From the NCBI RefSeq assembly GCF_032854445.1, contig NC_088302.1:3901338-3965337 (forward strand): a stretch of 64,000 nt of DNA, read 5' to 3'. The stretch is from Liolophura sinensis. Its lineage: Eukaryota > Mollusca > Polyplacophora > Chitonida > Chitonidae. The translations under genes and the position numbers were made by a program. Of the stretch, positions 1,663 through 51,602 are shown piece by piece. Positions within the stretch are counted from its first letter, which is position 1, and each line of letters opens with the position of its first letter. Below the pieces are notes generated by a model. That model searched no databases and was not told the origin of the DNA. It saw only the letters and a program-made list of their open reading frames with translations.

Positions 1663-1738
1663 TTATCGGTCAAGCTCATGAAGGGAGAATACTCTGGCTG
1701 TTTGGTCTTCTGATGTTGAAACAAGTACACCTCCATCT
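1663..1738 (-). CDS. AAMP: AAMP coding exon 12 (last)
   Basis: The acceptor is ggttttcag followed by A-GAT-GGA. With the AG left from exon 11 this gives Arg, then [20 protein letters not shown] and ELDR, then TAA. This is the last blade and C-terminal tail of AAMP. Possible ATTAAA polyadenylation signals on the minus strand lie near 1577 and 1529. The intron upstream is about 16 kb and mostly the 82-bp array. Confidence 0.92.
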
Positions 1739-4700: not shown

Positions 4701-7700
4701 AAAGTGTTCAACAAGGTCATCATTGTTGTCATTTACTGGAATTTCCTGCCAGAATTTCCTCTTAGCAGCGGGGAATGAATCGGCCAGTTTCAGAATATTC
4801 TGGCATTTCACGCTAGGAATTCCTCTTGGTTCATTCTGTGTTGGTGGTGTAAAGTCCAGTCTGAACTTGGGTTTAAGAAAGTCAACTTCCTGGTACATGT
4901 AGTCTCCTTCAAAACCCTCCTTAAACCACATTGCGCGTGAACCTTTACGAAATTCTGCCACTGATATGGAGCTGAGATGAGGTAGCGTTACGTTCTTGGA
5001 CTTTCTATTACCGTGACCGTCCTCAAATTCATAAAAGTCATGGTATTGCATTGTGATTGGCTTGATCTTAGTTCCCGATTTGTCACACAAATCTACGAAG
5101 TCCTGGAAATTACAAATCTCGGGACATTTCTTCATTTTCCTTCCAATGCAGCCATGGACGCTGTCTGCACGCATAAAAGTGTGTCCCCTTTCAAAATACT
5201 TCATTGTGATACTTTGTGGGCCCCAGGGTTGATTGACACACCAACACAACACCGTGTAAAGGACCCAGTTTTTGTTTTGTCCCGTGCAGTTGTCTGCCCA
5301 GAATATCACAAATCTGTCTCACAAAGGCATAAACACTTTATATACGTGGAGGCAATGTCAACTCCTAATCTACCCCTGATAGCCTCATGCCACAAAATAA
5401 CAAAGTCACCGTCTTCTTTTACTGATGCAAATGTCTCATTGAAGACAACTAATCTGCTAACAAAGAAATGTTCTTTGATGGTCATTTTGGGAAGGAGGAT
5501 AACCTTTTGCATATCTAAGTAAATATACTGGTGTTTTCCTTATCAACAGCACCATCGTGGTCTTCTCGATAATGGGTACAGAAAACGTGAGAACATCCTG
5601 ACTGAATTGTCTTTAAAAAAGTTGTCCAATTTGTTGTGATCACATGACCAGAATTAGCTAATGTGATTGGTTTAACTCATATGAGAAATAATTTGACTTG
5701 CTATGTTTTTCCCTTTCAATTGATCCAGGTAAAGAGTGTGAAAGCGCTTCCTGTTGAGAGCTTTTGATCTTGTAGAACCTAGTAAGTGACATGTAGTCGT
5801 ACATTGATCTGGAAAAACCTAGCAAGACGAATTACTAGGTTTTCCCAGATGACTATGTGGTATTTTTCCACATGATATTGACTTACTAGGTTCTTCAAGA
5901 TCAAAAATTCCCAACAGGAGGACTTTCACACACTTTACCTGGATGAAATGAAAGAGAAAAACATAGGAAGTCCAGTTGTGGGCCTAACTCATTTTTCACC
6001 AAAATTTGACTTACTAGGTTTTTCCAGATGACAGGAGCAATGTGTGCAGTGTTTTAAACGATAGGCATGAAAAGCAGACGTCCAATCATATAAAAATGGA
6101 AATCTTTCCAAAACCCGGTAGTGTCTTGCCCGGTCTGGCCAAGTTGTGTGGCTCACTGAGGAGTGACGGAGATGTGAACTACTGTCACTGATCAACTACC
6201 AGTAATCCCCTACGACTTAAGACAACAGCCCCTGCAAGGTATCATGGTATATATTTTCTGAATATGTGTATGAAATTATTGAGAACGTATGTTCACTAAA
6301 AAAAACACACAAGTATTCTCTGATATTAAGTTTACAAACTATTCTGCAAACAAATGTTCCCTACCAGTTTCAGCCATCTACTGATCAGAATGTAAAAAAG
6401 CTTTCTCAAAACAGGGCAAAAACAGGCATAGTTTTTGTCCAAAATGGCCCCAAAATCAATTCTCTTATCTGTATCAGCATTATGGAAACGTATTAAATTT
6501 CAAATCAATTTGATGAATCGCCATGTTAAAAAGTCGAAAACACATGTACTTATGAATGTTTCACCATACATGTTGCTAGTATACCATGTGTACAACAGCA
6601 GTCAGTGTCATGGGTGTAATGAAATATACAAGCTCATAATGGCCATATTGTCACATTCATACAAGCTCATAATGGCCATATTGCCACATTCATACAAGCT
6701 CATAGTGGCCATATTGCCACCTTCATACAAGCTCATAATGGCCATATTGCCCACCTTCATACAAGCTCACAGTGGCCATATTGCCACCTTCATACAAGCT
6801 CATAATGGCCATATTGCCACCTTCATACAAGCTCATAAAAGCCATATTGCCACCTTCATACAAGCTCATAGTGGCCATATTGCCACCTTCATACAAGCTC
6901 ATAGTGGCCATATTGCCCACCTTTCATACAAGATCATAATGGCCATATTGCCACCTTCATACAAGCTCATAGTGGCCATATTCCCACCTGCATACAAGCT
7001 CATAGTGGCCATATTGCCACCTTCATACAAGTTCAGAATGCCATATATAAGCACTGGCATCATTATCCAAAACGAGTCTAGAATTTCTCCTTGCTGACCT
7101 ATCCACTGTGATACAATATGTGAGCCAATAATGATGTACAGACCTGGCCATGTCAAAGTCTAGAATTTCTCCTTGGTCACCTTCCACTGTGATACGATGT
7201 GTGAGTCAATACTGATGTACAGACCTGGCCATGTCAAAGTCTAGAATTTCTCCTTGGTCACCTGTCCACTGTGATACAATGTGTGAGTTAATACTGATGT
7301 ACAGACCTGGCCATGTCAAAGTCTAGAATTTCTCCTTGGTCACCTGTCCACTGTGATACAATGTGTGAGTTAATACTGATGTACAGACCTGGCCATGTCA
7401 AAGTCTAGAATTTCTCCTTGGTCACCTGTCCACTGTGATACAATGTGTGAGTTAATACTGATGTACAGACCTGGCAATGTCAAAGTCTAGAATTTCTCCT
7501 TGGTCACCTGTCCACTGTGATACAATATGTGAGTCAATACTGATGTACACCCTGGCCATGTCAAAGTTTAGAATTTCTCCTTGGTCACCTGTCCACTGTG
7601 ATACGATGTGTGAGTCAATACTGATGTACAGACCTGGCCATGTCAAAGTCTAGAATTTCTCCTTGGTCACCTGTCCACTGTGATACCATGTGTGAGTCAA

Positions 7701-10700
7701 TCCCTGATGTACAGACCTGGGCCATGTCAAAGTCTAGAATTTCTCCTTGGTCACCTGTCCACTGTGATACAATGTGTGAGTTAATACTGATGTACAGACC
7801 TGGCCATGTCAAAGTTTAGAATTTCTCCTTGGTCACCTGTCCACTGTGATACCATGTGTGAGTCAATCCTGATGTACAGACCTGGCCATGTCAAAGTCTA
7901 GAATTTCTCCTTGGTCACCTGTCCACTGTGATACAATGTGTGAGTTAATACTGATGTACAGACCTGGTCATGTCAAAGTTTAGAATTTCTCCTTGGTCAC
8001 CTGTCCACTGTGATACGATGTGTGAGTCAATACTGATGTACAGACCTGGCGACATCAAAGTTTAGAATTTCTCCTTGGTCACCTGTCCACTGTGATACGA
8101 TGTGTGAGTCAATACTGATGTACAGACCTGGCAATGTCAAAGTCTAGAATTTCTCCTTGGTCACTTGTCCACTGTGATACAATGTGTGAGTCAATACTGA
8201 TGTACACCCTGGCCATGTCAAAGTCTAGAATTTCTCCTTGGTCACCTGTCCAGTGTGATACAATATGTGAGTCAATACTGATGTATAGACCTGGCCATGT
8301 CAAAGTCTAGAATTTCTCCTTGGTCACCTGTCCACTGTGATACAAGGTGTGAGTCAATACTGATGTACAGACCTGGCCATGTCAAAGTCTAGAATTTCTC
8401 CTTGGTCACCTGTCCACTGTGATATGATGTGTGAGTCAATACTGATGTACAGACCAGGCCATGTCAAAGTTTAGAATTTCTCCTTGGTCACCTGTCCACT
8501 GTGATACGATGTGTGAGTCAATAGGCCTACTGATGTATAGACCTGGCAATGTCAAAGTCTAGAATTTCTCCTTGGTCACCTGTCCACTGTGATACGATGT
8601 GTGAGTCAATACTGATGTACAGACCTGGCCATGTCAAAGTCTAGAATTTCTCCTTGGTCACCTGTCCACTGTGATACAATGTGTGAGTCAATACTGATGT
8701 ACAGACCTGGCCATGTCAAAGTTTAGAATTTCTCCTTGGTCACCTGTCCACTGTGATACGATGTGTGAGTCAATACTGATGTATAGACCTGGCCACGTCA
8801 AAGTCTAGAATTTCTCCTTGGTCACCTGTCCACTGTGATACAATGTGTGAGTCAATACTGATGTACAGACCTGGCAATGTCAGTCTAGAATTTCTCCTTG
8901 GTCACCTGTCCACTGTGATACAATGTGTGAGTCAATACTGATGTACAGACCAGGCCATGTCAGAGTCTAGAATTTCTCCTTGGTCACCTGTCCACTGTGA
9001 TACAATGTGTGAGTCAATACTGATGTACAGACCTGGCCATGTCAAAGTCTAGAATTTCTCCTTGGTCACCTGTCCACTGTGATACGATGTGTGAGTCAAT
9101 ACTGATGTACAGACCTGGCCATGTCAAAGTCTAGAATTTCTCCTTGGTCACCTGTCCACTGTGATACGATGTGTGAGTCAATACTGATGTACAGACCTGG
9201 CAATGTCAGTCTAGAATTTCTCCTTGGTCACCTGTCCACTGTGATACGATGTGTGAGTCAATACTGATGTACAGACCTGGCCATGTCAAAGTCTAGAATT
9301 TCTCCTTGGTCACCTGTCCACTGTGATACGATGTGTGAGTCAATACTGATGTACAGACCTGGCAATGTCAGTCTAGAATTTCTCCTTGGTCACTTGTCCA
9401 CTGTGATACAATGTGTGAGTCAATACTGATGTACACCCTGGCCATGTCAAAGTCTAGAATTTCTCCTTGGTCACCTGTCCAGTGTGATACAATATGTGAG
9501 TCAATACTGATGTATAGACCTGGCCATGTCAAAGTCTAGAATTTCTCCTTGGTCACCTGTCCACTGTGATACAAGGTGTGAGTCAATACTGATGTACAGA
9601 CCTGGCCATGTCAAAGTCTAGAATTTCTCCTTGGTCACCTGTCCACTGTGATATGATGTGTGAGTCAATACTGATGTACAGACCAGGCCATGTCAAAGTT
9701 TAGAATTTCTCCTTGGTCACCTGTCCACTGTGATACGATGTGTGAGTCAATAGGCCTACTGATGTATAGACCTGGCAATGTCAAAGTCTAGAATTTCTCC
9801 TTGGTCACCTGTCCACTGTGATACGATGTGTGAGTCAATACTGATGTACAGACCTGGCCATGTCAAAGTCTAGAATTTCTCCTTGGTCACCTGTCCACTG
9901 TGATACAATGTGTGAGTCAATACTGATGTACAGACCTGGCCATGTCAAAGTTTAGAATTTCTCCTTGGTCACCTGTCCACTGTGATACGATGTGTGAGTC
10001 AATACTGATGTATAGACCTGGCCACGTCAAAGTCTAGAATTTCTCCTTGGTCACCTGTCCACTGTGATACAATGTGTGAGTCAATACTGATGTACAGACC
10101 TGGCAATGTCAGTCTAGAATTTCTCCTTGGTCACCTGTCCACTGTGATACAATGTGTGAGTCAATACTGATGTACAGACCAGGCCATGTCAGAGTCTAGA
10201 ATTTCTCCTTGGTCACCTGTCCACTGTGATACAATGTGTGAGTCAATACTGATGTACAGACCTGGCCATGTCAAAGTCTAGAATTTCTCCTTGGTCACCT
10301 GTCCACTGTGATACGATGTGTGAGTCAATACTGATGTACAGACCTGGCCATGTCAAAGTCTAGAATTTCTCCTTGGTCACCTGTCCACTGTGATACGATG
10401 TGTGAGTCAATACTGATGTACAGACCTGGCAATGTCAGTCTAGAATTTCTCCTTGGTCACCTGTCCACTGTGATACGATGTGTGAGTCAATACTGATGTA
10501 CAGACCTGGCCATGTCAAAGTCTAGAATTTCTCCTTGGTCACCTGTCCACTGTGATACGATGTGTGAGTCAATACTGATGTACAGACCTGGCAATGTCAG
10601 TCTAGAATTTCTCCTTGGTCACCTGTCCACTGTGATACAATGTGTGAGTCAATACTGATGTATAGACCTGGCCATGTCAAAGTCTAGAATTTCTCCTTGG

Positions 10701-13700
10701 TCACCTGTCCACTGTGATACGATGTGTGAGTCAATTCTGTTGTATAGACCTGGCCATGTCAAAGTCTAGAATTTCTCCTTGGTCACCTGTCCACTGTGAT
10801 ACGATGTGTGAGTCAATACTGATGTACAGACCTGGCCATGTCAAAGTCTAGAATTTCTCCTTGGTGACCTGTCCACTGTGATACAATGTGTGAGTCAATA
10901 CTGATGTACAGACCTGGCCATGTCAAAGTCTAGAATTTCTCCTTGGTCACCTGTCCACTGTGATACGATGTGTGAGTCAATACTGATGTACAGACCTGGC
11001 GACATCAAAGTTTAGAATTTCTCCTTGGTCACCTGTCCACTGTGATACGAGGTGTGAGTCAATACTGATGTACAGACCTGGCCATGTCAGTCTAGAATTT
11101 CTCCTTGGTCACCTGTCCACTGTGATACAATATGTGAGTCAATACTGATGTACAGACCTGGCCATGTCAAAGTCTAGAATTTCTCCTTGGTCACCTGTCC
11201 ACTGTGATACGATGTGTGAGTCAATACTGATGTACAGACCTGGCCATGTCAGTCTAGAATTTCTCCTTGGTCACCTGTCCACTGTGATACAATGTGTGAG
11301 TCAATACTGATGTACAGACCTGGGAAGGTCAAAGTCCAGAATTTCTCCTTGGTCACCTGTCCACTGTGATACGATGTGTGAGTCAATACTGATGTACAGA
11401 CCTGGCAATGTCAAAGTCTAGAATTTCTCCTTGGTCACCTGTCCACTGTGATACAATGTGTGAGTCAATACTGATGTACAGACCTGGCCATGTCAAAGTC
11501 TAGAATTTCTCCTTGGTGACCTGTCCACTGTGATACAATGTGTGAGTCAATACTGATGTACAGACCTGGCCATGTCAAAGTCTAGAATTTCTCCATGGTC
11601 ACCTGTCTACTGTGATACAATATGTGAGTCAATACTGTTGTACAGACCTGGCGACATCAAAGTTTAGAATTTCTCCTTGGTCACCTGTCCACTGTGATAC
11701 GATGTGTGAGTCAATACTGATGTACAGACCTGGCAATGTCAGTCTAGAATTTCTCCTTGGTCACCTGTCGACTGTGATACAATGTGTGAGTCAATACTGA
11801 TGTACAGACCTGGCCATGTCAAAGTCTAGAATTTCTCCTTGGTCACCTGTCCACTGTGATACAATATGTGAGTCAATACTGATGTACAGACCTGGCGACA
11901 TCAAAGTTTAGAATTTCTCCTTGGTCACCTGTCCACTGTGATACGATATGTGAGTCAATACTGATGTACAGACCTGGCCATGTCAAAGTTTAGAATTTCT
12001 CCTTGGTCACCTGTCCACTGTGATACAATGTGTGAGTCAATACTGATGTACAGACCTGGCAATGTCAAAGTCTAGAATTTCTCCTTGGTCACCTGTCCAC
12101 TGTGATACGATGTGTGAGTCAATACTGATGTACAGACCTGGCCATGTCAAAGTCTAGAATTTCTCCTTGGTCACCTGTCCACTGTGATACAATGTGTGAG
12201 TCAATACTGATGTACAGACCTGGCCATGTCAAAGTCTAGAATTTCTCCTTGGTCACCTGTCCACTGTGATACAATGTGTGAGTTAATACTGATGTACAGA
12301 CCGGGCAATGTCAAAGTCTAGAATTTCTCCTTGGTCACCTGTCCACTGTGATACAATGTGTGAGTCAATACTGATGTACAGACCTGGCCATGTCAAAGTC
12401 TAGAATTTCTCCTTCGTGACCTGTCCACGGTGATACAATGTGTGAGTCAATACTGATGTACAGACCTGGCAATGTCAAGGTCTAGAATTTCTCCTTGGTC
12501 ACCTGTTCACTGTGATACAATGTGTGAGTCAATACTGATGTACAGACCTGGTCATGTCAAAGTCTAGAATTTCTCCTTGGTGACCTGTCCACGGTGATAC
12601 AATGTGTGAGTCAATACTGATGTACAGATCTGGCCATGTCAAAGTCTAGAATTTCTCCTTGGTCACCTGTCCACTGTGATACGATGTGTGAGTCAATACT
12701 GATGTACAGACCTGGCCATGTCAAAGTCTAGAATTTCTCCTTGGTCACCTGTCCACTGTGATACGATGTGTAAGTCAATACTGATGTACAGACCTGGCCA
12801 TGTCAAAGTTTAGAATTTCTCCTTGGTCACCTGTCCACTGTGATACGATGTGTGAGTCAATACTGATGTACAGACCTGGCCATGTCAAAGTCTAGAATTT
12901 CTCCTTGGTCACCTGTCCACTGTGATACAATGTGTGAGTCAATAATGATGTACAGACCTGGCCATGTCAAAGTCTAGAATTTCTCCTTGGTCACCTGTCC
13001 ACTGTGATACAATGTGTGAGTCAATACTGATGTACAGACCTGGCCATGTCAAAGTCTAGAATTTCTCCTTGGTCACCTGTCCACTGTGATACAATGTGTG
13101 AGTCAATACTGATGTACAGACCTGGCAATGTCAAAGTCTAGAATTTCTCCTTGGTCACCTGTCCACTGTGATACTATGTGTGAGTCAATACTGATGTACA
13201 GACCTGGCCATGTCAAAGTCTAGAATTTCTCCTTGGTCACCTGTCCACTGTGATACAATGTGTGAGTCAATAATGATGTACAGACCTGGCCATGTCAAAG
13301 TCTAGAATTTCTCCTTGGTCACCTGTCCACTGTGATACAATGTGTGAGTCAATACTGATGTACAGACCTGGCCATGTCAAAGTCTAGAATTTCTCCTTGG
13401 TCACCTGTCCACTGTGATACAATGTGTGAGTCAATACTGATGTACAGACCTGGCAATGTCAAAGTCTAGAATTTCTCCTTGGTCACCTGTCCACTGTGAT
13501 ACTATGTGTGAGTCAATACTGATGTACAGACCTGGCCATGTCAAAGTCTAGAATTTCTCCTTGGTCACCTGTCCACTGTGATACAATGTGTGAGTCAATA
13601 CTGATGTACAGACCTGGCAATGTCAAAGTCTAGAATTTCTCCTTGGTCACCTGTCCACTGTGATACAATGTGTGAGTCAATACTGATGTACAGACCTGGC

Positions 13701-16700
13701 CATGTCAAAGTCTAGAATTTCTCCTTGGTCACCTGTCCACGGTGATACAATGTGTGAGTCAATACTGATGTATATACCTGGCCATGTCAAAGTCTAGAAT
13801 TTCTCCTTGGTCACCTGTCCACTGTGATACAATGTGTGAGTCAATACTGATGTACAGACCTGGCCATGTCAAAGTCTAGAATTTCTCCTTGGTCACCTGT
13901 CCACTGTGATACGATGTGTGAGTCAATACTGATGTACAGACCTGGCCATGTCAAAGTCTAGAATTTCTCCTTGGTCACCTGTCCACTGTGATACGATGTG
14001 TGAGTCAATACTGATGTACAGACCTGGCAATGTCAAAGTCTAGAATTTCTCCTTGGTCACCTGTCCACTGTGATACGATGTGTGAGTCAATACTGATGTA
14101 CAGACCTGGCCATGTCAAAGTTTAGAATTTCTCCTTGGTCACCTGTCCACTGTGATACAATGTGTGAGTCAATACTGATGTACAGACCTGGCCATGTCAA
14201 AGTCTAGAATTTCTCCTTGGTCACCTGTCCACTGTGATACAATGTGTGAGTCAATACTGATGTACAGACCTGGCCATGTCAAAGTCTAGAATTTCTCCTT
14301 GGTCACCTGTCCACTGTGATACAATGTGTGAGTCAATACTGATGTACAGACCTGGCAATGTCAAAGTCTAGAATTTCTCCTTGGTCACCTGTCCACTGTG
14401 ATACGATGTGTGAGTCAATACTGATGTACAGACCTGGCAATGTCAAAGTCTAGAATTTCTCCTTGGTCACCTGTCCACTGTGATACAATGTGTGAGTCAA
14501 TACTGATGTACAGACCTGGCAATGTCAAAGTCTAGAATTTCTCCTTGGTCACCTGTCCACTGTGATACAATGTGTGAGTCAATACTGATGTACAGACCTG
14601 GCAATGTCAAAGTCTAGAATTTCTCCTTGGTCACCTGTCCACTGTGATACAATGTGTGAGTCAATACTGATGTACAGACCTGGCCATGTCAAAGTCTAGA
14701 ATTTCTCCTTGGTGACCTGTCCACGGTGATACAATGTGTGAGTCAATACTGATGTATATACCTGGCCATGTCAAAGTCTAGAATTTCTCCTTGGTCACCT
14801 GTCCACTGTGATACAATGTGTGAGTCAATACTGATGTACAGACCTGGCCATGTCAAAGTCTAGAATTTCTCCTTGGTCACCTGTCCACTGTGATACGATG
14901 TGTGAGTCAATACTGATGTACAGACCTGGCAATGTCAGTCTAGAATTTCTCCTTGGTCACCTGTCCACTGTGATACAATGTGTGAGTCAATACTGATGTA
15001 CAGACCTGGCCATGTCAAAGTCTAGAATTTCTCCTTGGTCACCTGTCCACTGTGATACAATGTGTGAGTTAATACTGATGTACAGACCTGGCCATGTCAA
15101 AGTTTAGAATTTCTCCTTGGTCACCTGTCCACTGTGATACGAGGTGTGAGTCAATACTGATGTACAGACCTGGCAATGTCAGTCTAGAATTTCTCCTTGG
15201 TCACCTGTCCACTGTGATACAATGTGTGAGTCAATACTGATGTACAGACCTGGCCATGTCAAAGTCTAGAATTTCTCCTTGGTCACCTGTCCACTGTGAT
15301 ATAATATGTGAGTCAATACTGATGTACAGACCTGGCCATGTCAAAGTCTAGAATTTCTCCTTGGTCACCTGTCCACTGTGATACAATGTGTGAGTCAATA
15401 CTGATGTACAGACCTGGCAATGTCAGTCTAGAATTTCTCCTTGGTCACCTGTCCACTGTGATACAATGTGTGAGTCAATACTGATGTACAGACCTGGCCA
15501 TGTCAAAGTCTAGAATTTCTCCTTGGTCACCTGTCCACTGTGATACAATGTGTGAGTCAATACTGATGTACAGACCTGGCCATGTCAGTCTAGAATTTCT
15601 CCTTGGTCACCTGTCCACTGTGATACAATGTGTGAGTCAATACTGATGTACAGACCTGGCCATGTCAAAGTCTAGAATTTCTCCTTGGTCACCTGTCCAC
15701 TGTGATACAATGTGTGAGTCAATACTGATGTACAGACCTGGCCATGTCAAAGTCTAGAATTTCTTCTTGGTCACCTGTCCACTGTGATACGATGTGTGAG
15801 TCAATACTGATGTACAGACCTGGCCATGTCAAAGTCTAGAATTTCTCCTTGGTGACCTGTTCACTGTGATACGATGTGTGAGTCAATACTGATGTATAGA
15901 CCTGGCCATGTCAAAGTCTAGAATTTCTCCTTGGTCACCTGTCCACTGTGATACGATGTGTGAGTCAATACTGATGTACAGACCTGGCCATGTCAAAGTC
16001 TAGAATTTCTCTTTGGTCACCTGTCCACTGTGATACGATGTGTGAGTCAATACTGATGTACAGACCTGGCCATGTCAAAGTCTAGAATTTCTCCTTGGTC
16101 ACCTGTCCACTGTGATATGATGTGTGAGTCAATACTGATGTACAGACCTGGCCATGTCAAAGTTTAGAATTTCTCCTTGGTCACCTGTCCACTGTGATAC
16201 AATGTGTGAGTCAATTCTGATGTACAGACCTGGCCATGTCAAAGTCTAGAATTTCTCCTTGGTCACCTGTCCACTGTGATACAATGTGTGAGTCAATACT
16301 GATGTACAGACCTGGCCATGTCAAAGTCTAGAATTTCTCCTTGGTGACCTGTCCACTGTGATACAATGTGTGAGTCAATACTGATGTACAGACCTGGCCA
16401 TGTCAAAGTCTAGAATTTCTCCTTGGTCACCTGTCCACTGTGATACAATGTGTGAGTCAATACTGATGTACAGACCTGGCAATGTCAAAGTCTAGAATTT
16501 CTCCTTGGTCACCTGTCCACTGTGATACAATGTGTGAGTCAATACTGATGTACAGACCTGGCCATGTCAAAGTCTAGAATTTCTCCTTGGTCACCTGTCC
16601 ACTGTGATACAATGTGTGAGTCAATACTGATGTACAGACCTGGCCATGTCAAAGTCTAGAATTTCTCCTTGGTCACCTGTCCACGGTGATACAATGTGTG

Positions 16701-19700
16701 AGTCAATACTGATGTATATACCTGGCCATGTCAAAGTCTAGAATTTCTCCTTGGTCACCTGTCCACTGTGATACAATGTGTGAGTCAATACTGATGTACA
16801 GACCTGGCCATGTCAAAGTCTAGAATTTCTCCTTGGTCACCTGTCCACTGTGATACAATGTGTGAGTCAATACTGATGTACAGACCTGGCAATGTCAGTC
16901 TAGAATTTCTCCTTGGTCACCTGTCCACTGTGATACGATGTGTGAGTCAATACTGATGTACAGACCTGGCCATGTCAAAGTCTAGAATTTCTCCTTGGTC
17001 ACCTGTCCACTGTGATACGATGTGTGAGTCAATACTGATGTACAGACCTGGCCATGTCAAAGTCTAGAATTTCTCCTTGGTCACCTGTCCACTGTGATAC
17101 AATGTGTGAGTCAATACTGATGTACAGACCTGGCCATGTCAAAGTCTAGAATTTCTCCTTGGTCACCTGTCCACTGTGATACAATGTGTGAGTCAATACT
17201 GATGTACAGACCTGGCCATGTCAAAGTCTAGAATTTCTCCTTGGTCACCTGTCCACTGTGATACAATGTGTGAGTCAATACTGATGTACAGACCTGGCCA
17301 TGTCAAAGTCTAGAATTTCTTCTTGGTCACCTGTCCACTGTGATACGATGTGTGAGTCAATACTGATGTACAGACCTGGCCATGTCAAAGTCTAGAATTT
17401 CTCCTTGGTGACCTGTTTACTGTGATACGATGTGTGAGTCAATACTGATGTATAGACCTGGCCATGTCAAAGTTTAGAATTTCTCCTTGGTCACCTGTCC
17501 ACTGTGATACAATGTGTGTGTCAATACTGATGTACAGACCTGGCCATGTCAAAGTTTAGAATTTCTCCTTGGTCACCTGTCCACTGTGATACAATGTGTG
17601 AGTCAATACTGATGTACAGACCTGGCCATGTCAAAGTCTAGAATTTCTCCTTGGTCACCTGTCCACTGTGATACAATGTGTGAGTTAATACTGATGTACA
17701 GACCTGGCAATGTCAAAGTCTAAAATTTCTCCTTGGTGGCCTGTCCACTGAGACACAATGTTGCCTGTTCTCGCATCCCACAACCTGAGAACTCTGTCCA
17801 GACTGGCTGTGTAAATCATGGAGGTGGCAGAGTCCCAGCGCAGTTTCACAATACCGGCCTGAAAAAATGTAATTTTTTAAATTTGTTTTTGTTATACTTG
17901 ACTAACTTTTTCACCGACACATTCAGATTTACATGTTGCTCCATCACAGATCTTCATAACTACTCCTATTCTGTATTCATTGAATGATATTGCCTACCAG
18001 CACTGAATGATATTGCCTACCAGCACTGAATGATATTGCCTACCAGCACTGAATGATATTGCCTACCAGCACTGAATGATATTGCCTACCAGCACTGAAT
18101 GCAAAGACAATAAATCATGTGAACTGGAAGGCGAAATTACCATTAGTTCATTTCTAAGATTTCGATAATACAATTTTGAGTTTATTTTGTGCTAAATTAA
18201 GTTTTTTTAAAAATGTTACTACCTACGAACAAAAGTAAGAATGGAATAGCAAATGATTCTCCACATAAATGTATGTGTATGCTAGTTTAAGCCACCGGCA
18301 TATTTGACATGCAATAAAGACTGAAACGTCATCCTGACCTTAGCTTGAAATGTTTTTCACGCAACCTATAACTACTTGCATCTTAAAGTGCAAACTTAAG
18401 CCAAAAAGGGAAGAATAGGAAACACAAAAACTACCTCTCATACAAATATACATTCACTAATCATTGGTAATTCACACATATTCAAGTGCGTACATTTTCC
18501 CAACATGTATATCCACTAATCATTGGTAATTCACACATATTCAAGTGCGTACATTTTCCCCACATGTATATCCACTAATCATTGGTAATTCACACATATT
18601 TAGGTGCGTACATTTTCCCCACAGGTAATTTTAACAGGGATCATTTCAATTTATTTATTTATTTATTTGATTGGTGTTTTACGCCGTACTCAAGAATATT
18701 TCACTTATACGACGGCGGCCAGCATTATGGTGGGTGGAAACCGGGCAGAGCCCGGGGGAAACCCACGACCATCCGCAGGTTGCTGGCAGACTTTCCCACT
18801 TATGGCCGGAGAGGAAGCCAGCATGAGCTGGACTTGAACTCACAGCGACCGCATTGGTGAGAGGCTCCTGGGTCATTACGCTGCGCTATAGCGCGCTAAC
18901 CGACTAAGCCATGGAGGCCCCTGGGATCATTTCAAGCTTTTACCACAATGTTACTGACCAGAAGTGATATGGGAACACTTTGCTGCTATGTTTCAGGAGG
19001 AATCCAGAATCCTTTACCCCATCCATTCACCTTACGCACAATGTATAAGACAATGCCCCTAAGCATGTATCAAGCCCACAGCAGTTTTAGTTTATATTAA
19101 TCTTGTTAGGTGATGAAGAACAACATTCTACCTCATGTGGACAAGTATGTCGCAACACTTGTGTAGGAACATCCCAGACACACAGTGATCCAGAGAGAGA
19201 GCCTGTGGCGACCAGAGGCTGACTGAAACAAAGCCAAGGTATAAACAAACATGTACACACTTGTGTAGGAACATCCCAGATACACACTGATCCACAGAGA
19301 GAGCCTGTAGCGACCAGAGGCTGACTGAAACAAAGCCAACATGTACACACATTTGTAGGAGCACCCCAGACAGACACTGATCCCCAGAGAGAACCTGTGG
19401 CGACCAGAGACTGACTGAAACAAAGCCAAGGTATAAACAAACATGTACACACTTGTGTAGGAACATCCCAGACACACAGTGATCCAGAGAGAGAGCCTGT
19501 GGCGACCAGAGGCTGACTGAAACAAAGCCAAGGTATAAACAAACATGTACACACTTGTGTAGGAACATCCCAGACACACAAGAGATCCAGAGAGAGAGCC
19601 TGTGGCGACCAGAGGCTGACTGAAACAAAGCCAACATGTACACACTTGTGTAGGAACATCCCAGACACACAGTGATCCAGAGAGAGAACCTGTGGTGACC

Positions 19701-22700
19701 AGAGGCTGACTGAAACAAAGCCAAGGTATAAACAAACATGTACACACTTGTGTAGGAACATCCCAGACACACAGAGATCCAGAGAGAGAGCCTGTGGCGA
19801 CCAGAGGCTGACTGAAACAAACCCAAAGTATAAACAAACATATACTAGCTTGTGTAGGAACATTCCAGATACACATTGATCCAGAGAGAGAACCTGTGGC
19901 GACCAGAGGCTGACTGAAATAAAGCCAACATGTACACACTTGTGTAGGAGCATCTCAGATACACACTGATCCACAGAGAGAACCTGTGGCGACCAGGGAC
20001 TGACTGAAACAAACCCAAGGTATAAACAAACATATACAAACTTGTGTAGGAGCATCCCACACACACACTGATCTACAGAGACAACCTATGGCAATATTCA
20101 CACTTGTGTAGAAGCATCCCACACACACACTGATCTACAACCTATGGCGATATTCACACTTGTGTAGAAGCATCTATTCACACTTGTGTAGAAGCATCCC
20201 ACACACACACTGATCTACAACCTATGGCGATATTCACACTTGTGTAGAAGCATCTATTCACACTTGTGTAGAAGCATCCCACACACACACTGATCTACAA
20301 CCTATGGCGATATTCACACTTGTGTAGAAGCATCCCACACACACACTGATCTACAACCTATGGCGATATTCACACTTGTGTAGAAGCATCCCACACACAC
20401 ACTGATCTACAACCTATGGCGATATTCACACTTGTGTAGAAGCATCCCACACACACACTGATCTACAACCTATGGCGATATTCACACTTGTGTAGGAGCA
20501 TCCCACACACACACTGATCTACAACCTATGGCGATATTCACACTTGTGTAGAAGCATCCCACACACACACTGATCTACAACCTATGGCGATATTCACACT
20601 TGTGTAGGAGCATCCCACACACACATTGATCTCCAACCTATGGCGATATTCACACTTGTGTAGAAGCATCCCACACACACACTGATCTACAACCTATGGC
20701 GATATTCACACTTGTGTAGAAGCATCCCACACACACAATGATCTACAACCTATGGCGATATTCACACTTGTGTAGAAGCATCCCACACACACACTGATCT
20801 ACAACCTATGGCAATATTCACACTTGTGTAGGAGCATCCCACACACACACTGATCTACAACCTATGGCGATATTCACACTTGTGTAGAAGCATCCCACAC
20901 ACACACTGATCTACAACCTATGGCGATATTCACACTTGTGTTGAAGCATCCCACACACACACTGATCTACAACCTATGGCGATATTCACACTTGTGTAGA
21001 AGCATCCCACACACACACTGATCTACAACCTATGGCGATATTCACACTTGTGTAGAAGCATCCCACACACACACTGATCTACAACCTATGGCGATATTCA
21101 CACTTGTGTAGAAGCATCCCACACACACACTGATCTACAACCTATGGCGATATTCACACTTGTGTAGAAGCATCCCACACACACACTGATCTACAACCTA
21201 TGGCGATATTCACACTTGTGTAGAAGCATCCCACACACACACTGATCTACAACCTATGGCGATATTCACACTTGTGTAGAAGCATCCCACACACACACTG
21301 ATCTACAACCTATGGCGATATTCACACTTGTGTAGAAGCATCCCACACACACACTGATCTACAACCTATGGCGATATTCACACTTGTGTAGGAGCATCCC
21401 ACACACACACTGATCTACAACCTATGGCGATATTCACACTTGTGTAGAAGCATCCCACACACACACTGATCTACAACCTATGGCGATATTCACACTTGTG
21501 TTGAAGCATCCCACACACACACTGATCTACAACCTATGGCGATATTCACACTTGTGTAGAAGCATCCCACACACACACTGATCTACAACCTATGGCAATA
21601 TTCACACTTGTGTAGAAGCATCCCACACACACACTGATCTACAACCTATGGCAATATTCACACTTGTGTAGAAGCATCCCACACACACACTGATCTACAA
21701 CCTATGGCGATATTCACACTTGTGTAGAAGCATCCCACACACACACTGATCTACAACCTATGGCGATATTCACACTTGTGTTGAAGCATCCCACACACAC
21801 ACTGATCTACAACCTATGGCGATATTCACACTTGTGTAGAAGCATCCCACACACACACTGATCTACAACCTATGGCGATATTCACACTTGTGTAGAAGCA
21901 TCCCACACACACACTGATCAACAACCTATGGCGATATTCACACTTGTGTAGAAGCATCCCACACACACACTGATCTACAACCTATGGCAATATTCACACT
22001 TGTGTAGAAGCATCCCACACACACACTGATCAACAACCTATGGCGATATTCACACTTGTGTAGAAGCATCCCACACACACACTGATCTACAACCTATGGC
22101 GATATTCACACTTGTGTAGAAGCATCCCACACACACACACTGATCTACAACCTATGGCGATATTCACACTTGTGTAGAAGCATCCCACACACACACACTG
22201 ATCTACAACCTATGGCGATATTCACACTTGTGTAGAAGCATCCCACACACACACTGATCTACAACCTATGGCGATATTCACACTTGTGTAGAAGCATCCC
22301 ACACACACACTGATCTACAACCTATGGCGATATTCACACTTGTGTAGAAGCATCCCACACACACACACTGATCTACAACCTATGGCGATATTCACACTTG
22401 TGTAGAAGCATCCCACACACACGCTGATCTACAACCTGTGGCGATATTCACACTTGTGTAGAAGCATCCCACACACACACTGATCTACAACCTATGGCGA
22501 TATTCACACTTGTGTAGAAGCATATTCACACTTGTGTAGAAGCATCCCACACACACACTGATCTACAACCTATGGTGATATTCACACTTGTGTAGACCAT
22601 ATTAACACTTGTGTAGAAGCATATTCACACTTGTGTAGAAGTATATTCACACTTGTGTAGAAGCATATTCACACTTGTGTAGACCATATTCACACTTGTG

Positions 22701-25700
22701 TAGGAGCATATTCACACTTGTGTAGAAGCATATTCACACTTGTGTAGAAGCATATTCACACCTGTGTAGAAGCATATTCACACTTGTGTAGAAGCATATT
22801 CACACTTGTGTAGGAGCATATTCACACTTGTGTAGAAGCATATTCACACTTGTGTAGAAGCATATTCACACTTGTGTAGAAGCATATTCACACTTGTGTA
22901 GGAGCATATTCACACTTGTGTAGAAGCATATTCACACTTGTGTAGAAGCATATTCACACTTGTGTAGAAGCATATTCACACTTGTGTAGAAGCATATTCA
23001 CACTTGTGTAGAAGCATATTCACACTTGTGTAGGAGCATCCCACACTCCAGTTTATATCGCATCAAAATTCATCAACGTCCAGTAAATCATCTGCCCTAG
23101 ATCATAACTCCTATAACGCACTTGATTTTCAGACCAGGAATTTTCAGGTTTTGTATGGCTTGTTTTTGTCAATGTTGTATACCAGTACTTGGAAAGTGTA
23201 AATAGAGCAAAAAACTGAGTATTTTTGCCTCACGTTTGACTGAAGCCCACTGTCTCCACACAGTCAGTCTCTAGACTGGCTGGCTTTCCACACTGGAAGG
23301 TTGCCAACACCTGAAACATCAGACACAAAGAAAGAGAATCATGTAGTCATTCAATATTTTCATTTACAAAATTCAAAAGTAAATTAATAAGTAATTCAAA
23401 TGTGTCATACCTTATGTCTGAAACGACTTTAGCTAGGTAATTTAAGTCATGTGACAACACGATTATTGAGAAAAATCTATGAAAAACATCCACAAGAAGA
23501 TACTTGTCAGTGATTATAAATGGTTATCCTGGGAAAAGTCCGCCACTGACAAATTAGGTATCATGTTTGACTTCAGACCTCACTTATCAGGATGTAGCTT
23601 TATGTCATTTACAGTTCAGGTTAGATCTGGATTCAGCCATGATGCATATACCACGAAGGTTTGGTGTACAAAAGCCTTATACCTGACCGCTTTTATTTCA
23701 ATGAAAACTTCCTGAATGGGTTTGTTAAACCCTCTATTAAACAAATAACCTAGAATCACCTCACTCTCTTACCTGTACAGATAATGTATCATTTCTGATA
23801 AACCAGAATGTGACAGTTATGTGTACATAATGTCAGAGATGTGTCAGAAGCAAGTCAAAGAGATGTAACAAGAGCCCAAGGGCTGAGAAATGGGTCTACT
23901 GTTTTTCTACTTTCATATTATTTTTCTTATAACTAATGACCAATTGTCTTCTAGTACAATTCATTGGTCTTTGCCACTCACAAAGAGCCTATCAGTTATT
24001 CTGTCTGTAACGGAGGACCTAGCCTCACCTCATTATGGCACGACGTGAAGGAGAATTCATTGCACCAAAACATCATATTACAATATACTGCAAGATTGTA
24101 GATATTTTCCCAAAATTTTTTTGCAATTAAATCATTACCATTTCTTTTTGTTCGGTTAGTGTGAGCATGAAAATCTTTATTTGTAAGTGGCAACAGATCA
24201 AGGCAACACATCGTAATGCAATACATGTTTTGGCCCTCACACTGTATAGTCGTATCTCAACAGTACACATACAGGCAATGACACATAAAATATATGTACA
24301 ATCTGTCAACCTTTTTTTTTTTTTTTATCTTTTCAGAATTATGTGCAAATGTTCATCACATAAAGCCAATGTAATTAAAAGTTCATTCCTCAATTTAACA
24401 GATGAATTTTTCAATGGAGCATGAAAAACTTTGTATAATAAGTTTGTTGGCATTCACGCAGTTAGAAAGATCAACTATTGGGCAGTAACCCACAGGATTA
24501 AGCAGTGTTACAGATAATTTTCAGAGGTAGTGCAGCACTCCCTACTTTTCCAACAGAGGGAGTATTGGGTAAGCCTACTGCGGTACGCATTATTTGAAAA
24601 TACTCAACATTTCACTATTTTGGGTCCCCTGCAATACATCTGGAAAGTGTGAAGTTGATTGAGAGAAGAGGGGTGAGAAAATCGAAATACACACATGTGC
24701 ATACAGGGATAGGTCTAAATAGACCTACCAGTCATAGAATGTTGTAGTTATACACAGGACTACAAGTATATGTACGTACATGTCGACTGCCCAGAATTAC
24801 GACTTGTCATAACATTCTAGAATAAATTAATTATTTCAGCTCTTCCTCACGAGGTATGAATCTGAATGATTGGGCTACATTTATTTGGTGTATTCCGCTA
24901 ACGCCTACGGTTTCACACCTTCCGCTGATCCGGGTATTAGTAAAAGCGGCTAACACAAAGGAAATGGGGATAATCCGTTTAACCCTGGTGAGGTAGGCGA
25001 TGAGGGAAATTCTGTCAGTAATACAAGAAATTCTGCCGGGAAGTTGAGTGAACAGTGCTCCTATTCGGACACTTGACCAGAATATATAAATAGGTCGTCA
25101 TTCACAGCTGTGAAATCAGCCCCATATGAACAATGAAACAGAATCCTTCCATCTATTTCCAAAACCCTTGATGACGTGGACCTCCATGGAACCTGGACAG
25201 AAACAAAACCTTGGAATCCTTTTCTTCTGGCAAATGATGGCATAGATGACTGGATAGTTCTGTTGGGTACAGCCAGCAATCTTCAGCATCTATGCTCAGC
25301 AGATAAGATATTCTGCGATGGGACCTAGCTGAAGATGTTTGGCTTCAAGCTCTGGCAGAGATTCTCCAAACACTGCCACAGCTCGACTCTTTGCAGACTA
25401 TGTCACTGAAACTTGGATAGTGGATCAAGAGACATGGAACCACTATGGCACAAAGGGACCAAGCACTACAAACCATTTGGAGGTCTGGCATTGAAAGCTA
25501 AACTTGGATAGAGGGAGCCTTCGATCAAGAGACATGGAACCACTATAACACAAAGGGACCAAGCACTACAAACCATTTGGAGGTCTGGCATTGAAAGCTA
25601 AACTTGGATAGAGGGAGCCTTCGATCAAGAGACATGGAACCACTATGACACAAAGGGACCAAGCACTACAAACCATTTGGAGGTCTGGCATTGAAGGCTA

Positions 25701-28700: not shown

Positions 28701-31700
28701 CTAGAGTCATCAGTAGCGAGTGTGGCCACCCTGGGCATCAATGCAAGCAAGCATACGCCTCCGCATTGACGTTGTCAGTCGCCGGATGATGTCAACAGGG
28801 ATAACGTTCCATAGGTTTAACAGAGCTTGCTCAAGTTCCTGTTGGTTAGTTGGAGGAGGCACCAGCTGTCTCAAACGGCGGTCAAGGTGATCCCAGAGAT
28901 GCTCAATGGGGTTCATGTCTGGTGAGTTGGCTGGCCAGGGCAACACAATGACGTTTGCAGTCTTGAGGTAGTCTGCAACAATGCGGGCAGTGTGAGGTCT
29001 TGCGCTGTCGTGTTGCAAGATCGATCCTCTTGGCTGTTGTTGGAGGAAAGGAAAGACGACAGGTCTCAGTATCTCATCAACGTATCGCTGGCCAGTCAGA
29101 TTACCTTGCACAATAACCCGCTGCGTCTTCATTTGGTCACAAATCCCTCCCCAAACCATGACGCCTCCGCCTCTAAACGGATAAACCTCTCTTACGCAGT
29201 TTGGCGCGAGACGCTCGCCTCTTCGTCGGAAAACTTGAACTCTGCCATCGTTCCTGAATAGACAGAACCTGCTCTCGTCTGTAAACAGCACTCTCGCCCA
29301 GTCACGTCGCTGCCACCGACGTACAATACGTGCCCATCGCAATCTGCGTTGACGGTGTAAAAGGGTCAAGGCCATCCCACGGAAGGGGCGGTAAGGTCGT
29401 AAACCAGCTGAACGAAGACGACGCAGTGTTGTTCTGGGGCTGATGACATGGCCTAGTGCCGTCGCCGCTGTTGACGTCGCCGTGACGAATCGGTTTCGGA
29501 ATGGATCTGCCGGATGTAGCGATCTTCAGCCGCAGTTGTTACCCTCGGTCTTCCCGATCTTGGTCTGTCTTGGATCTGGCCTGTCTGCTGATAGCGTATC
29601 AACAACCTCCTGATGGTGGTTTGGCTACAGTTGAACGTTCTTGCAATGTGACGTTGCGAGACTCCCATTGTGGACATACCGATGGCCTGGTCTCGTTGCG
29701 CTTGCGTAAGTCTTGGCATACTGTTGGTGTTTTTTCGGTCACTGAATGTCTGCTCTTTCGAGCAAGAGTATTTATGCAACATTACCGCACGTGCATCACG
29801 AGCCATGCCTCAAAAGGATGTTTTGCATGTGGTCGCAATTTCACAATTCCAATTGCTGCGTTCGTGACGATGCGTTCTGGTAGAGGAAACGATGCAGTCA
29901 TACACTAAGTCCTGCTTAGAATCAAACCCACAACCGTGCTTTTACTTTTTTTATGACAAAAAATATGGTGAAACCTTTCTTTTGCCTGGTAGTTTAGTTC
30001 ACAGCTCCGTTAAAAAGATGTACATCATTTGACACATGTGCACATATGTGGTTCAAGGAATGTAACACTCGGTCATGATGTAACATTTCATGCAAGGAAT
30101 CCATTTCATATATTTTGTTCTTTCTGGAGTTTCCAACCATAATTCAAAACACACATGTACTTGTACTCACAGCTGAATTCTGCTGAAGTCTTGCTTAAAT
30201 TGACAGAAAACACTGCCTGCATGAGGGGCTTTGGAATCATTCCAAAAGTGGGTGAGTTAAGTATCAAATTAGAGGAGGGTCCAATGAACAATGGTTGCTC
30301 TCTAGAATGGCAGTGAGTACGGTCAGGCAACTCAAAGCTCCAAACTTAAAGTGAAATACACTATGTATAAGATGACATATTCTTGAGACCAGAGATAACC
30401 TCCAAAAAAATAAACAAATAACTATGGACATACCTCAATATCAGAGCAGTGAAATGCCCAGACCTCCTTCCAACTGCTTACTTCCCAGACCTTAATTAAA
30501 CCACTCATGTCAGCTGTAGCCAGGTAAACACCATCGTGACTGAAGCCCACGCTCGTAACTGAGTCTGTGTGACCTGTCAACATCAAAAGGTAAACACTAT
30601 CATGACTAAAGCCCACGCTTGTCACTGAGTCTGTGTGACCTGTCAACATCAAAAGATAAACACCATCATGACTGAAGCCCACACTCATCACTGAGTCTGT
30701 GTGACATGTCAACATCAACAATCACCAGCTTCAGATGAACACCATCGTGACTGAAGCCCACTCTCGTCACTGAGCCTGTGTGACATGTCAACATCAAAAG
30801 ATAAACACCATCATGAATGAAGCCCACTCTCGTCACTGAGTCAGCTTCAGATGAAGACCATCGTGATTGAAGCCCATGCTCATTGCTGAGCCTGTGTGAC
30901 CTGTCAACATCAAAAGATAAACACCATCATGACCGAAGCCCACACTCATCACTGAGCCTGTGTGACCTGTCAACATCAAAAGATAAACACCATCATGAAT
31001 GAAGCCCACTCTCGTCACTGAGTCTGCGTGACATGTCAACATCAACAATCACCAGCTTCAGATGAACACCATCGTGACTGAAGCCCACTCTCGTCACTGA
31101 GCCTGTGTGACATGTCAACATCAAAAGATAAACACCATCATGAATGAAGCCCACTCTCGTCACTTAGTCTGCATGACATGTCAACATAAACAATCACCAG
31201 CTTCAAATAAACACCATCATGACTGAAGATCCCACTGGTCAATGTGTCTGTGTGACCTGTCAACATCAACAATCCCCAGCTTCAAATAAACGCCATCATG
31301 ACTGAAGCCCACTCTCGTCACTGAGTCTGCATGACATGTCAACATCAACAATCACCAGCTTCAAATAAACACCATCATGACTGAAGATCCCACTGGTCAC
31401 CGAGTCTGTGTGACCTGTCAACATCAACAATCACCAGCTTCAGATAAACACCATCATGACTGAAACCCACGCTCATCACTGAAGTCTGTGTGACCTGTCA
31501 ACATCAACAATCCCCAGCTTCAGATAAACACCATCATGACTGAAGCCCACTCTGGTCACTAAGTCTGTGTGACCTGTCAACATCAACAATCCCCAGCTTC
31601 AGATAAACACCATCATGACTGAAGCCCACTCTCGTCACTGAGTCTGTGTGACCTGTCAACATCAACAATCACCAGCTTCAGATAAACACCATCATCACTG

Positions 31701-34700
31701 AAGCCCACGCTCGTCACTGAGTCTGTGTGACCTGTCAACATCAACAATCCCCATCTTCAGATAAACACCATCATGACTGAAGCCCACGCTCGTCACTGAG
31801 TCTGTGTGACCTGTCAACATCAACAGTCACCAGCTTCAGATAAACACCATCATGACTGAAGCCCATGCTCATCACTGAAGTCTGTGTGACCTGTCAACAT
31901 CAACAATCTCCAGCTTCAAATTAACACCATCATGACTGAAGCTCCCACTGGTCACCGAGTCTGTGTGACCTGTCAACATCAACAATCCCCAGCTTCAGAT
32001 AAACACCATCATGACTGAAGCCCACTCTCGTCACTAAGTCTGTGTGACCTGTCAACATCAACAATCTCCAGCTTCAGATAAACACCATCATGACTGAAGC
32101 CCACTCTCGTCACTGAGTCTGTGTGACCTGTCAACATCAACAATCCCCAGCTTCAGATAAACACCATCATGACTGAAGCCCACGCTCGTCACTAAGTCTG
32201 TGTGACCTGTCAACATCAACAATCACCAGCTTCAGATAAACACCATCATGACTGAAGCCCACGCTCGTCACTGAGTCTGTGTGACCTGTCAACATCAACA
32301 ATCCCCAGCTTCAGATAAACACCATCATGACTGAAGCCCACGCTTGTCACTGAGTCTGTGTGACATGTCAACATCAACAATCACCAGCTTCAGATAAACA
32401 CCATCATGACTGAAGCCCACTCTCGTCACTAAGTCTGTGTGACCTGTCAACATCAACAATCCCCAGCTTCAGATAAACACCATCATGACTGACGCCCACG
32501 CTCGTCACTGAGTCTGTGTGACCTGTCAACATCAACAATCACCAGCTTCAGATGAACACCATCATGACCGAAGCCCACGCTTGTCACTGAGCCTGTGTGA
32601 CCTGTCAACATCAAAAGATAAACACCATCATGACTGAAGCCCACTCTGGTCACTAAGTCTGTGTGACATGTCAACATCAACAATCACCAGCTTCAGATAA
32701 ACACCATCATGACTGAAGCCCACGCTCGTCACTGAGCCTGTGTGACCTGTCGACATCAAAAGATAAACACCATCATGACTGAAGCGCACGCTCGTCACTG
32801 GGTCCGCGTGACATGTCAACATCAACAATCCCCAGCTTCAGATAAACACTATCATGACTGAAGCTCCCACTGGTCACCGAGTCTCTGTGGCCCGCAATGG
32901 TAACCTTTTTCACCTCTATGTGGCCAAAAATGTATACAAAACAGTTCTTATGCAAAAAGAAAAAACAACATAAAAAAAAAACCACAACAAAAGCTACTGC
33001 ATGGTTTGAGCATCGATGAAAAGATTGCCAACAATATGTTAAAATATAACATGTTTGACATCACACTGGTTCAAATATCACAAAACAACATTACATTAAT
33101 TACCAACTTTGTTCTCAGCTTCACATGGACATCCATCAATGTTTTTTTGTGTCCATAATCATTTTTAAAAAATCATCATTCTCTCAAATCAAATAATTTC
33201 TTTCAACACAAATGTACAATTTATTTGTTTGATTGGTGCTTTACGCCCTAATCAAGAATATTTCACTTAGCATTAAAGTGGGAGGAAATCGGGCAGAGCC
33301 CTGGGGGGAAACCCATGCCCATCACATACATGTACAAGTACAATGCTGCTGATGTTAATTTTCTACCTGTGCACTCAAACAGGGTGTTGGCGGAGGAGAC
33401 ATCCCACACCATAGCTCTGTTGTCCTGTCCCCCTGTGACAGCTCTCGCACACGTGGCTGGGTCTACTCGCACACAGAACACAGCATCTGTAATGCAAAAC
33501 AAGATAACCGACATTCATGGCTGTTTACGGCATACATTACATCTTCACACATGTACATCTACACTATTTATTTTGATTTGATTGGTGTTTAATGCCAGAT
33601 TCATGAAAACATCAGTGCGTCTTTGCATGGTTGGTCACGTGTGGACCATACAGAGTGTGTATATGCTGTATATCTCCTATATCTTCCAGTGCTCACAGTA
33701 GGATCTACGTCAAAATACTCTTATCCATCACTGTGTAATGTCAATTAATACTTATTACATATGATTATTAGCTGGTTAACAACTTTTGTCATTAATGTCA
33801 TATTCATTGAAAGAGTAGGTTTCTGTAGACATTTGTATGCATAGTAAAGCAAAAAGGGTGATAACGAAGCCTATAGCCATTATTAACCTTGCTGACATAA
33901 AGATGCATTTATGCAGACTCACTCTATTGGCTTTGTTGTCTTACACATATTTTAACAGTCAGCACTAAACATGCTTCTGTCCTTCTTGTAAGATAGTGTT
34001 TGGTTGTGCACATATATAATGCATCAGTCACATCAGTGAAAGCAGAAAAGTACCTGTGTGCTTTGAAAATATCACATCTGCATTATCCTGCACATCAGCC
34101 TCATCTACCTGTGCCCCTTCTTCAATGTCCAGCTCATCAAGATCACCACCCACACCATTCAAATCTACAGGCAAGCAAAAGACAATCAAAGTAAATGATT
34201 AAGATCCAGTGATGGACCAATTACAGCTCAACTTTTCCAACATTTTAGTCCTTACATCATATTACTTGCTGCATAGCTACCGTAAGCTTACGCCCTGATA
34301 TCTACTGTAAGAGTTGTGTATGCTGTGAGGTCCACTGTAACAGCAGTGTATGCTGTGATGTCCACTGTAAGAGTAGTGTATGCTGTGATGTCTCCTGTAA
34401 GAGTACTGTATGCTGTGATGTCTACTGGAAGAGTTGTGTATGCTGTGATGTCTACTGTATGAGGAGTGTATGCTTTGATGTCTACTATAAACGTAGTGTA
34501 TGCTGTGATGCAGGGATCAGTTTAGCAAATGTTCCATGGCTTGCTATCTTTTACGTTATTTTATAAGTTGCAGGACAAATGTGACCTGTTGTTTTATTTT
34601 ATTACATGTGTTTTCCCTAAACTCTCATTTGAACATGCTCCGGGAATTTCCAAAGAGTATATGGTCACCATCACCACATTACATAAATCCACAAATCACA

Positions 34701-35779: not shown

Positions 35780-35806
35780 TCTGTCTGGTATCACTTGAAG
35801 CAAAAC
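35701..35806 (-). CDS. AAMP: AAMP exon 2, containing the start codon at 35779
   Basis: The acceptor is ttttttttacag at 35807 and up; the donor is G/gtgagt at 35700. The first ATG after the acceptor (35779) opens [20 protein letters not shown] and GDNSSG. The EE(V/I)IEL motif matches the acidic N-terminus of animal AAMP. The 27 nt before the ATG are untranslated. Confidence 0.9.
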
Positions 35807-43195: not shown

Positions 43196-43208
43196 TATGG
43201 AGTTGACG

Positions 43209-43378
43209 TTCAAGTCCAGGTCATACTGGCTTCCTCTCTGGCCGTAAGTGGGAAGGTCTGTCAGCAACCTGCGGATGGTCGTGGGTTTCCCCCGGGCTCA
43301 GCCATCATAATGCTGTCGTATAAGCAAAATATTTCTGCGTACGGCATAAAACACCAATCAAATAAATAAATAAATAAA
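43209..43378 (+). mobile_element. 5'-truncated SINE with 13-bp target duplication
   Basis: The SINE begins inside the B-box region (TTCAAGTCC) and ends in (AAAT)n. The 13-bp sequence TATGGAGTTGACG flanks it exactly (43196-43208 and 43379-43391). The tRNA head is missing, so this copy was 5'-truncated at insertion. Confidence 0.88.
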
Positions 43379-51405: not shown

Positions 51406-51602
51406 TTAGGCCATATAGATTCTGACTCGTCCTTTGATAGTGGCCCTGCAAATTGGACACTTCCGGAGTTTGGGACCACAAGTGAGGCAGGTGACAAGAT
51501 GGCCACACGGGAGGAAGGTCAGTTGGCACTTCTCCGTAAGACAAATCTTGCACATCGTCTTCTCCATTAACTCACGGTTCTCTTCCACCAAAGACATCAT
51601 CT
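51406..51602 (-). CDS. IAP exon 5 (RING and stop)
   Basis: The acceptor is cttgtctgttttcag followed by AG-ATG-ATG. It carries the complete RING (CKIC, CGHLVTC, CPICR), then [12 protein letters not shown] and TAA at 51406. A hydrophobic ending such as VRIYMA is similar to the short tails after the RING in other IAPs. Confidence 0.92.

Follow-up and report, generated by a model that had tools for sequence, protein, structure and literature searches.

Minisatellites whose unit spans an exon–intron boundary have been described in amphioxus, where units occur at both 5' and 3' exon boundaries and splicing is reported to be undisturbed (PMC3087553, PMC3902484). The name "mirages" was given in the work on Adh3 cited by PMC3087553, while PMC3902484 names Adh and TnC and adds PGBD5 as a mirage case. 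The reported unit lengths range from 10 to about 160 bp, and the mirage haplotypes of the globin gene BflGb6 carry six and three units (PMC3087553, PMC3902484). Here, we analysed three arrays of exon edges in a single gene for a WD40-repeat protein, located on a 64,000-nucleotide stretch of contig NC_088302.1 of Liolophura sinensis (hereafter the window, whose coordinates are used throughout). With a probability of about 0.82, we regard them as ordinary tandem duplications that spanned a splice junction and were amplified by unequal exchange or slippage, i.e., as a mirage-type structure.

The likeness to the mirages concerns several properties. The unit spans the exon–intron boundary, and both boundaries are affected (here the donor of exon 10 and the acceptors of exons 9 and 4). 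Many but not all units keep AG or GT (here 125/126, 9/9 and 21/30 for exons 10, 9 and 4, exons included), the authentic exon is distinct from its duplicates, and the units are homogenised, which was measured here in the exon 10 array only. Mirages are further characterised by germline or somatic length instability; the present data represent one haplotype. Unlike the six and three units of BflGb6, about 130 units occupy 10.6 kb of one intron at our locus, and three arrays share one gene. The first-pass annotation of this DNA knew of no description of such a pattern; the amphioxus reports provide one (PMC3087553, PMC3902484), and the three arrays are genuinely an unusually large set of mirage-type arrays, not a new phenomenon. 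For molluscs, the literature matches listed, judged by titles and the beginnings of abstracts, included no report on point other than the amphioxus paper PMC3087553. If the host were a lancelet, the arrays would be close to what is already known; if it is not, they extend mirage structures beyond the group in which we found them described.

In human factor VII, intron 7 contains a repeat of 37-bp units that overlap the donor of exon 7 and that, as in the exon 10 array, lie on the donor side. Variable internal tandem repeats at exon–intron boundaries also alter gene structure in human segmentally duplicated genes (PMC2812944), but those cases stem from recent paralogs, often with alternative transcripts. 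The Rogers model of intron gain (reviewed in PMC3443670) invokes the same kind of event, in which a genomic segment that includes AGGT is duplicated in tandem; at our locus, by contrast, an existing intron was lengthened, and no new intron is evident within the single genome. In Cryptococcus, introns were gained by repeat expansion (PMC2395259).

The host gene and its three arrays

The host gene lies on the minus strand; its 11 coding exons, the first at 35701-35806 and the last at 1663-1738, together form a 397-aa frame with no internal stops (Table 1). The product is a predicted WD40 propeller, based on the Pfam WD40 profile (E 6.4e-42) and on the similarity to solved WD40-repeat proteins (best E 1.9e-53). 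The gene is tentatively AAMP, the name given in the first-pass annotation, with which we agree; the top Pfam model was the first propeller of WDR3 (2.7e-50, above the model cut-off), and no AAMP model matched. A 5' non-coding exon is likely to lie upstream of the first coding exon, as suggested by the acceptor-like sequence TTTTTTTTACAG before it. Exons are numbered here from the ATG exon, and exons 10, 9 and 4 correspond to exons 11, 10 and 5 of the first-pass annotation; this offset of one is compatible with such a non-coding exon.

Self-BLAST of the 11 coding exons with 60-bp flanks against the whole window (E 1e-4) returned non-self matches for exons 4, 9 and 10 only (31, 58 and 130 matches, spanning 30588-32892, 19257-23046 and 7075-17679, respectively), and no copies of the other 8 of the 11 exons were found in the window at this threshold. 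The top exon-edge matches reached E 1e-39 to 1e-62, which is stronger evidence than the control with random stretches (for each reference, 200 stretches drawn from the plus strand of the window). In that control, which is lenient since free end gaps let random alignments shrink, the random stretches reached at most 0.305, 0.392 and 0.420 of the length of the references for exons 10, 9 and 4, and the lowest values among the units were 0.854, 0.863 and 0.778. Tandem Repeats Finder (TRF), self-BLAST and unit alignment together place three arrays of exon edge plus splice site within about 16 bp of the positions first proposed for them, except that the exon 4 array ends at about 32889-32892 and not at 32905. 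Cross-seeding among the arrays was considered and rejected, because each exon edge matched its own array alone (BLAST); each array thus arose separately, at its own exon edge.

For the exon 10 donor, TRF reported 130.5 copies of an 82-bp unit at 7075-17761. The unit is composed of 58 nt of the 3' end of exon 10 and 24 nt of intron with the 5' splice site (AG|GT). The anchor parse recovered 126 units including the exon, and comparison with the TRF count indicates that a few divergent units were missed. The median identity to the exon-edge reference was 0.902 (0.854-0.927, n = 124; a >60-bp filter removed the exon and the unit adjoining it). With the exon included, GT stands at the homologous donor place in 125 of 126 units, AG|GT is present at the junction in 117, and the exact sequence CAGGTCTGT is found in 107. 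A second ACAGGTNAC motif occurs in 122 of the 126, and the true exon does not carry it. The 125 parsed units fall into only 56 different sequences, and identical 200-mers are found at a spacing of 1229 bp, a pattern indicative of block duplication or unequal exchange within this array. Over 7166-17703, the true exon 10 differs from the exon part of the array consensus at six positions, four of them synonymous for the exon (codons read by eye), which hints that exon 10 was altered after its array was founded.

The exon 9 acceptor array, detected by TRF at 19155-23039, is built of three successive unit types, with 102-bp-type units followed by 56-bp and then 22-bp units. The 102-bp unit comprises about 68 nt of the start of exon 9 and up to 34 nt of intron with the acceptor (the split was read from the sequence), and the full units show a median identity of 0.911 to the exon edge (0.873-1.000, n = 8). 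The AG is kept in all nine units, exon included, and the junction in all nine is AG|TC, not AG|GT. The 56-bp units retain part of the exon 9 sequence, and the anchor search found no acceptor copy in the 56-bp and 22-bp units.

The exon 4 acceptor array was reported by TRF at 30522-32889 with periods of 66/79 bp. Its units hold about 52 nt of the start of exon 4 and 14-28 nt of intron with the acceptor (52 + 14 in the 66-bp unit, as read from the sequence), and their median identity to the exon edge was 0.885 (0.818-0.914, n = 29). Among 30 units including the exon, 21 have AG, in each case as AG|GT at the junction, and nine have AT. The G + C content was considered as an explanation of the arrays; that of the three arrays (0.437-0.468) can be compared with 0.505 for the exons, 0.392 for the introns without arrays and 0.283-0.521 for eight other arrays.

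Origin and growth of the arrays

In all three arrays, the units carry the exon edge and the splice site in fixed phase. The most likely start for each array would be an ordinary tandem duplication of a segment that happened to span an exon–intron junction. Such a duplication would leave the intron with an additional splice site; as long as the spliceosome still chose the exon-contiguous one, the mRNA would be unchanged, and the surplus copies would be neutral intronic sequence that unequal exchange or slippage could multiply. The intact 397-aa WD40 frame formed by the 11 exons implies that the gene can be spliced correctly in spite of the decoy sites. Selection tolerating expansions that spare the exon would fit the data as well. 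The arrays illustrate the extent to which copies of an exon edge can enlarge the adjoining intron without loss of the reading frame.

The first-pass annotation had described the functional exon as the terminal, intact unit of each array, growth into the intron alone and distal units as more degenerate, and had suggested a recurrent mechanism. The terminal position of the exon and the growth into the intron hold for all three arrays, but geometry suffices to explain them, and directional growth was rejected as evidence of mechanism. Duplication of an intron end plus an exon start gives the order i-e-i-e-E, in which the exon-contiguous copy is always terminal and the further copies lie on the intron side; the duplication of an exon end plus an intron start on the donor side is the mirror image, and the same geometry holds. 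The decay with distance was not seen. The Spearman correlation of identity with distance was -0.15 in the exon 10 array (p 0.086, n 124), 0.13 in the exon 4 array (p 0.49, n 29) and 0.07 among the full exon 9 units (p 0.87, n 8), and distal truncation is found in the exon 9 array alone. The absence of an identity gradient is the expectation under homogenisation. Neither property therefore supports a special mechanism.

The phase of the distal ends was also considered. By eye, the distal-most unit seems to stop within exon-derived sequence in all three arrays; since about two-thirds of the unit is exon-derived, this would occur by chance in about 3 of 10 cases (by arithmetic), and it was given no weight.

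Tandem repeats are frequently mis-assembled, and one amphioxus mirage was apparently assembled wrongly in the genome draft (PMC3087553), so that an assembly artefact has to be weighed. The 56 distinct units among 125, the mixed periods of 66/79 and 102/90 bp and the three graded unit types of the exon 9 array are hard to obtain from mis-assembly, and of the explanations weighed here this one has the smallest chance of being right. The copy number of the arrays could still be wrong in the assembly.

Several points weigh against duplication at random positions followed by neutral expansion. With each array collapsed to one unit, the gene has 16,149 bp and 20 internal junctions, and random placement expects 0.27-0.62 junction-straddling arrays among 13, compared with three observed (P 0.0013-0.019 according to the overlap required, calculated post hoc, once the pattern was known). 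In length, too, the three rank first among the 13 (1 in 286 by chance) and, again post hoc, among the six arrays with units of at least 40 bp (1 in 20). A random start alone thus fails to predict, in this post hoc comparison, both the number and the length rank of the junction arrays. Moreover, the splicing outcome on which the proposed history depends is predicted from genomic sequence. In these tests, the 13 arrays came from TRF output that was merged manually, with low-complexity arrays kept in, and the arrays of exons 9 and 4, which have mixed periods, were represented by units of 102 and 66 bp. In one of the six placement settings, the expected number was nan (empty pool), and its P of 0.00158 treats those units as never straddling.

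These figures would suit a recurrent mechanism that seeds or favours duplication at splice junctions, such as RNA-templated or transcription-coupled copying or junction-specific breakage, with arrays commoner and longer there. The presence of such structures in several unrelated amphioxus genes agrees with it (PMC3087553, PMC3902484), but the count is post hoc and comes from a single gene, 8 of the 11 exons have no copies, and the second gene of the window, which encodes BIR domains of the inhibitor-of-apoptosis (IAP) type, overlaps no TRF array. We consider this mechanism very improbable. The three arrays in one gene justify a genome-wide test and, being a post hoc observation, do not show enrichment.

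Copied splice sites and their predicted use

The arrays surround the true splice sites with many copies, whose effect was predicted in silico. Any of the 125 parsed decoy donors of exon 10 would, if used, truncate the protein at 378 aa. Of the 29 decoy acceptors of exon 4, the nearest two (at 66 and 132 nt) are in frame and would give a full-length product with extra residues, and 27 would truncate it; the second in-frame site carries AT, not AG. For exon 9, the nearest three of eight decoys (at 102, 192 and 294 nt) are in frame, and five would lead to truncation. The exon-proximal units at 19223-19516 and 30574-30705 are multiples of three and open, and their use would simply lengthen the protein.

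These sites raise the question of whether the arrays are used, with tandem AG|GT acting as dual-specific or recursive splice sites, so that the introns would be removed stepwise or isoforms with additional pieces of WD40 repeat produced. Tandem arrays of AG|GT sites in human UBC act in this way, and splicing runs through the array (PMC10809524). As in UBC and VCX3A (PMC10809524), AG|GT occurs once per unit in most exon 10 and exon 4 units; the second ACAGGTNAC motif in the exon 10 units and the in-frame position of the nearest acceptor decoys also agree with use. Unlike the UBC-type arrays (PMC10809524), the units here are fragments of exon and intron and not whole coding monomers, and any use of them is hypothetical; the exon 9 array has no AG|GT at its junction, and the introns also hold DNA outside the arrays. 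Introns 10, 8 and 3 are 15965, 4011 and 2793 nt long, of which the arrays take up 10629, 3817 and 2316 nt and other DNA the remainder; by arithmetic, no intron length is divisible by 82, 102 or 66.

Against such use stand the truncation predicted for all exon 10 decoys and for most exon 4 and exon 9 decoys, the AT at one of the two in-frame exon 4 sites, the AG|TC of the exon 9 junction and the published mirages, which are reported not to disturb splicing (PMC3087553). In addition, AT replaces AG in 6 of the 10 exon 4 units nearest the exon and in 3 of the 19 others (Fisher p 0.03), the opposite of conservation. This excess of AT may be due to selection against nearby competing sites or simply to the existence of unit subfamilies, and we treat it as a lead only. 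Taken together, a splicing role of the arrays appears highly improbable.

A broader proposal, in which splice junctions are preferred birthplaces of long minisatellites here, the AG|GT arrays are partly removed by recursive or dual-specific splicing and introns grow by many kb through copying of exon edges, is in our view very improbable. If it were true, intron 10 would be a natural competition between one true donor and about 125 downstream copies, mostly identical at the splice site.

The locus offers a powerful natural experiment on the choice of one splice site among many: the exact CAGGTCTGT is so widely shared among the exon 10 units that donor choice cannot depend on the local donor sequence alone. 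On the acceptor side, most of the 66 nt that precede the true acceptor of exon 4 now consist of exon-derived sequence, and the branch point of this acceptor may therefore lie in such DNA. Exon-edge arrays of this kind may also mislead exon-homology searches and short-read assemblies.

Coordinates and other features of the window

The coordinates of the coding exons and arrays are presented in Table 1.

Table 1. Selected coding exons of the WD40-repeat gene and the exon-edge arrays in its introns (window coordinates).
Feature	Coordinates	Strand	Units	Basis and remarks
Coding exon 1	35701..35806	-		Exon self-BLAST; preceded by acceptor-like TTTTTTTTACAG
Coding exon 3	33367..33486	-		Exon self-BLAST; without copies elsewhere in the window
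Intron 3 array	30574..32889	-	29, mostly 66/79 bp	TRF, unit parse, consensus
Coding exon 4	30434..30573	-		Exon-contiguous unit of the intron 3 array; true acceptor GTTGACAG|GTCACAC
Coding exon 8	23234..23310	-		Exon self-BLAST; without copies elsewhere in the window
Intron 8 array, distal part	22578..23039	-	21.1 copies of 22 bp	TRF; further truncated units
Intron 8 array, middle part	20032..22523	-	44.4 copies of 56 bp	TRF
Intron 8 array, exon-proximal part	19223..20092	-	8 of 102/90 bp	TRF, unit parse, consensus
Coding exon 9	19132..19222	-		Exon-contiguous unit of the intron 8 array; true acceptor TTGTTTCAG|TCAGCC
Coding exon 10	17704..17858	-		Exon-contiguous unit of the intron 10 array; true donor ATTGCCAG|GTCTGT; 397-aa frame continuous
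Intron 10 array	7075..17703	-	about 130 of 82 bp	TRF, anchor parse, consensus
Coding exon 11 (last)	1663..1738	-		Exon self-BLAST; terminates in TAA

Judging by its genes and introns, the window resembles animal nuclear DNA. The IAP-type gene lies on the minus strand and contains two BIR stretches (Pfam BIR E 3.2e-39, region tested 54375-55253). By eye, it extends over about 51.4-55.3 kb, with a possible 3' end in a RING-like sequence near 51413-51600. A repeat resembling a short interspersed nuclear element (SINE), with a tRNA-like head, was seen by eye on both strands at 18640-18920, 180-420, 43200-43370 and 53460-53730, among other places, and may be of a mollusc or MetaSINE type. ARAGORN called no tRNA genes in the window. 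Two relics resembling Tc1/mariner transposons were also recognised by eye at 28690-29900, within an intron of the WD40 gene, and at 46220-47750. The region 63008-63280 begins with a 73-bp tandem repeat (2.9 copies, TRF), followed by a part that, by eye, reads as its inverted copy.

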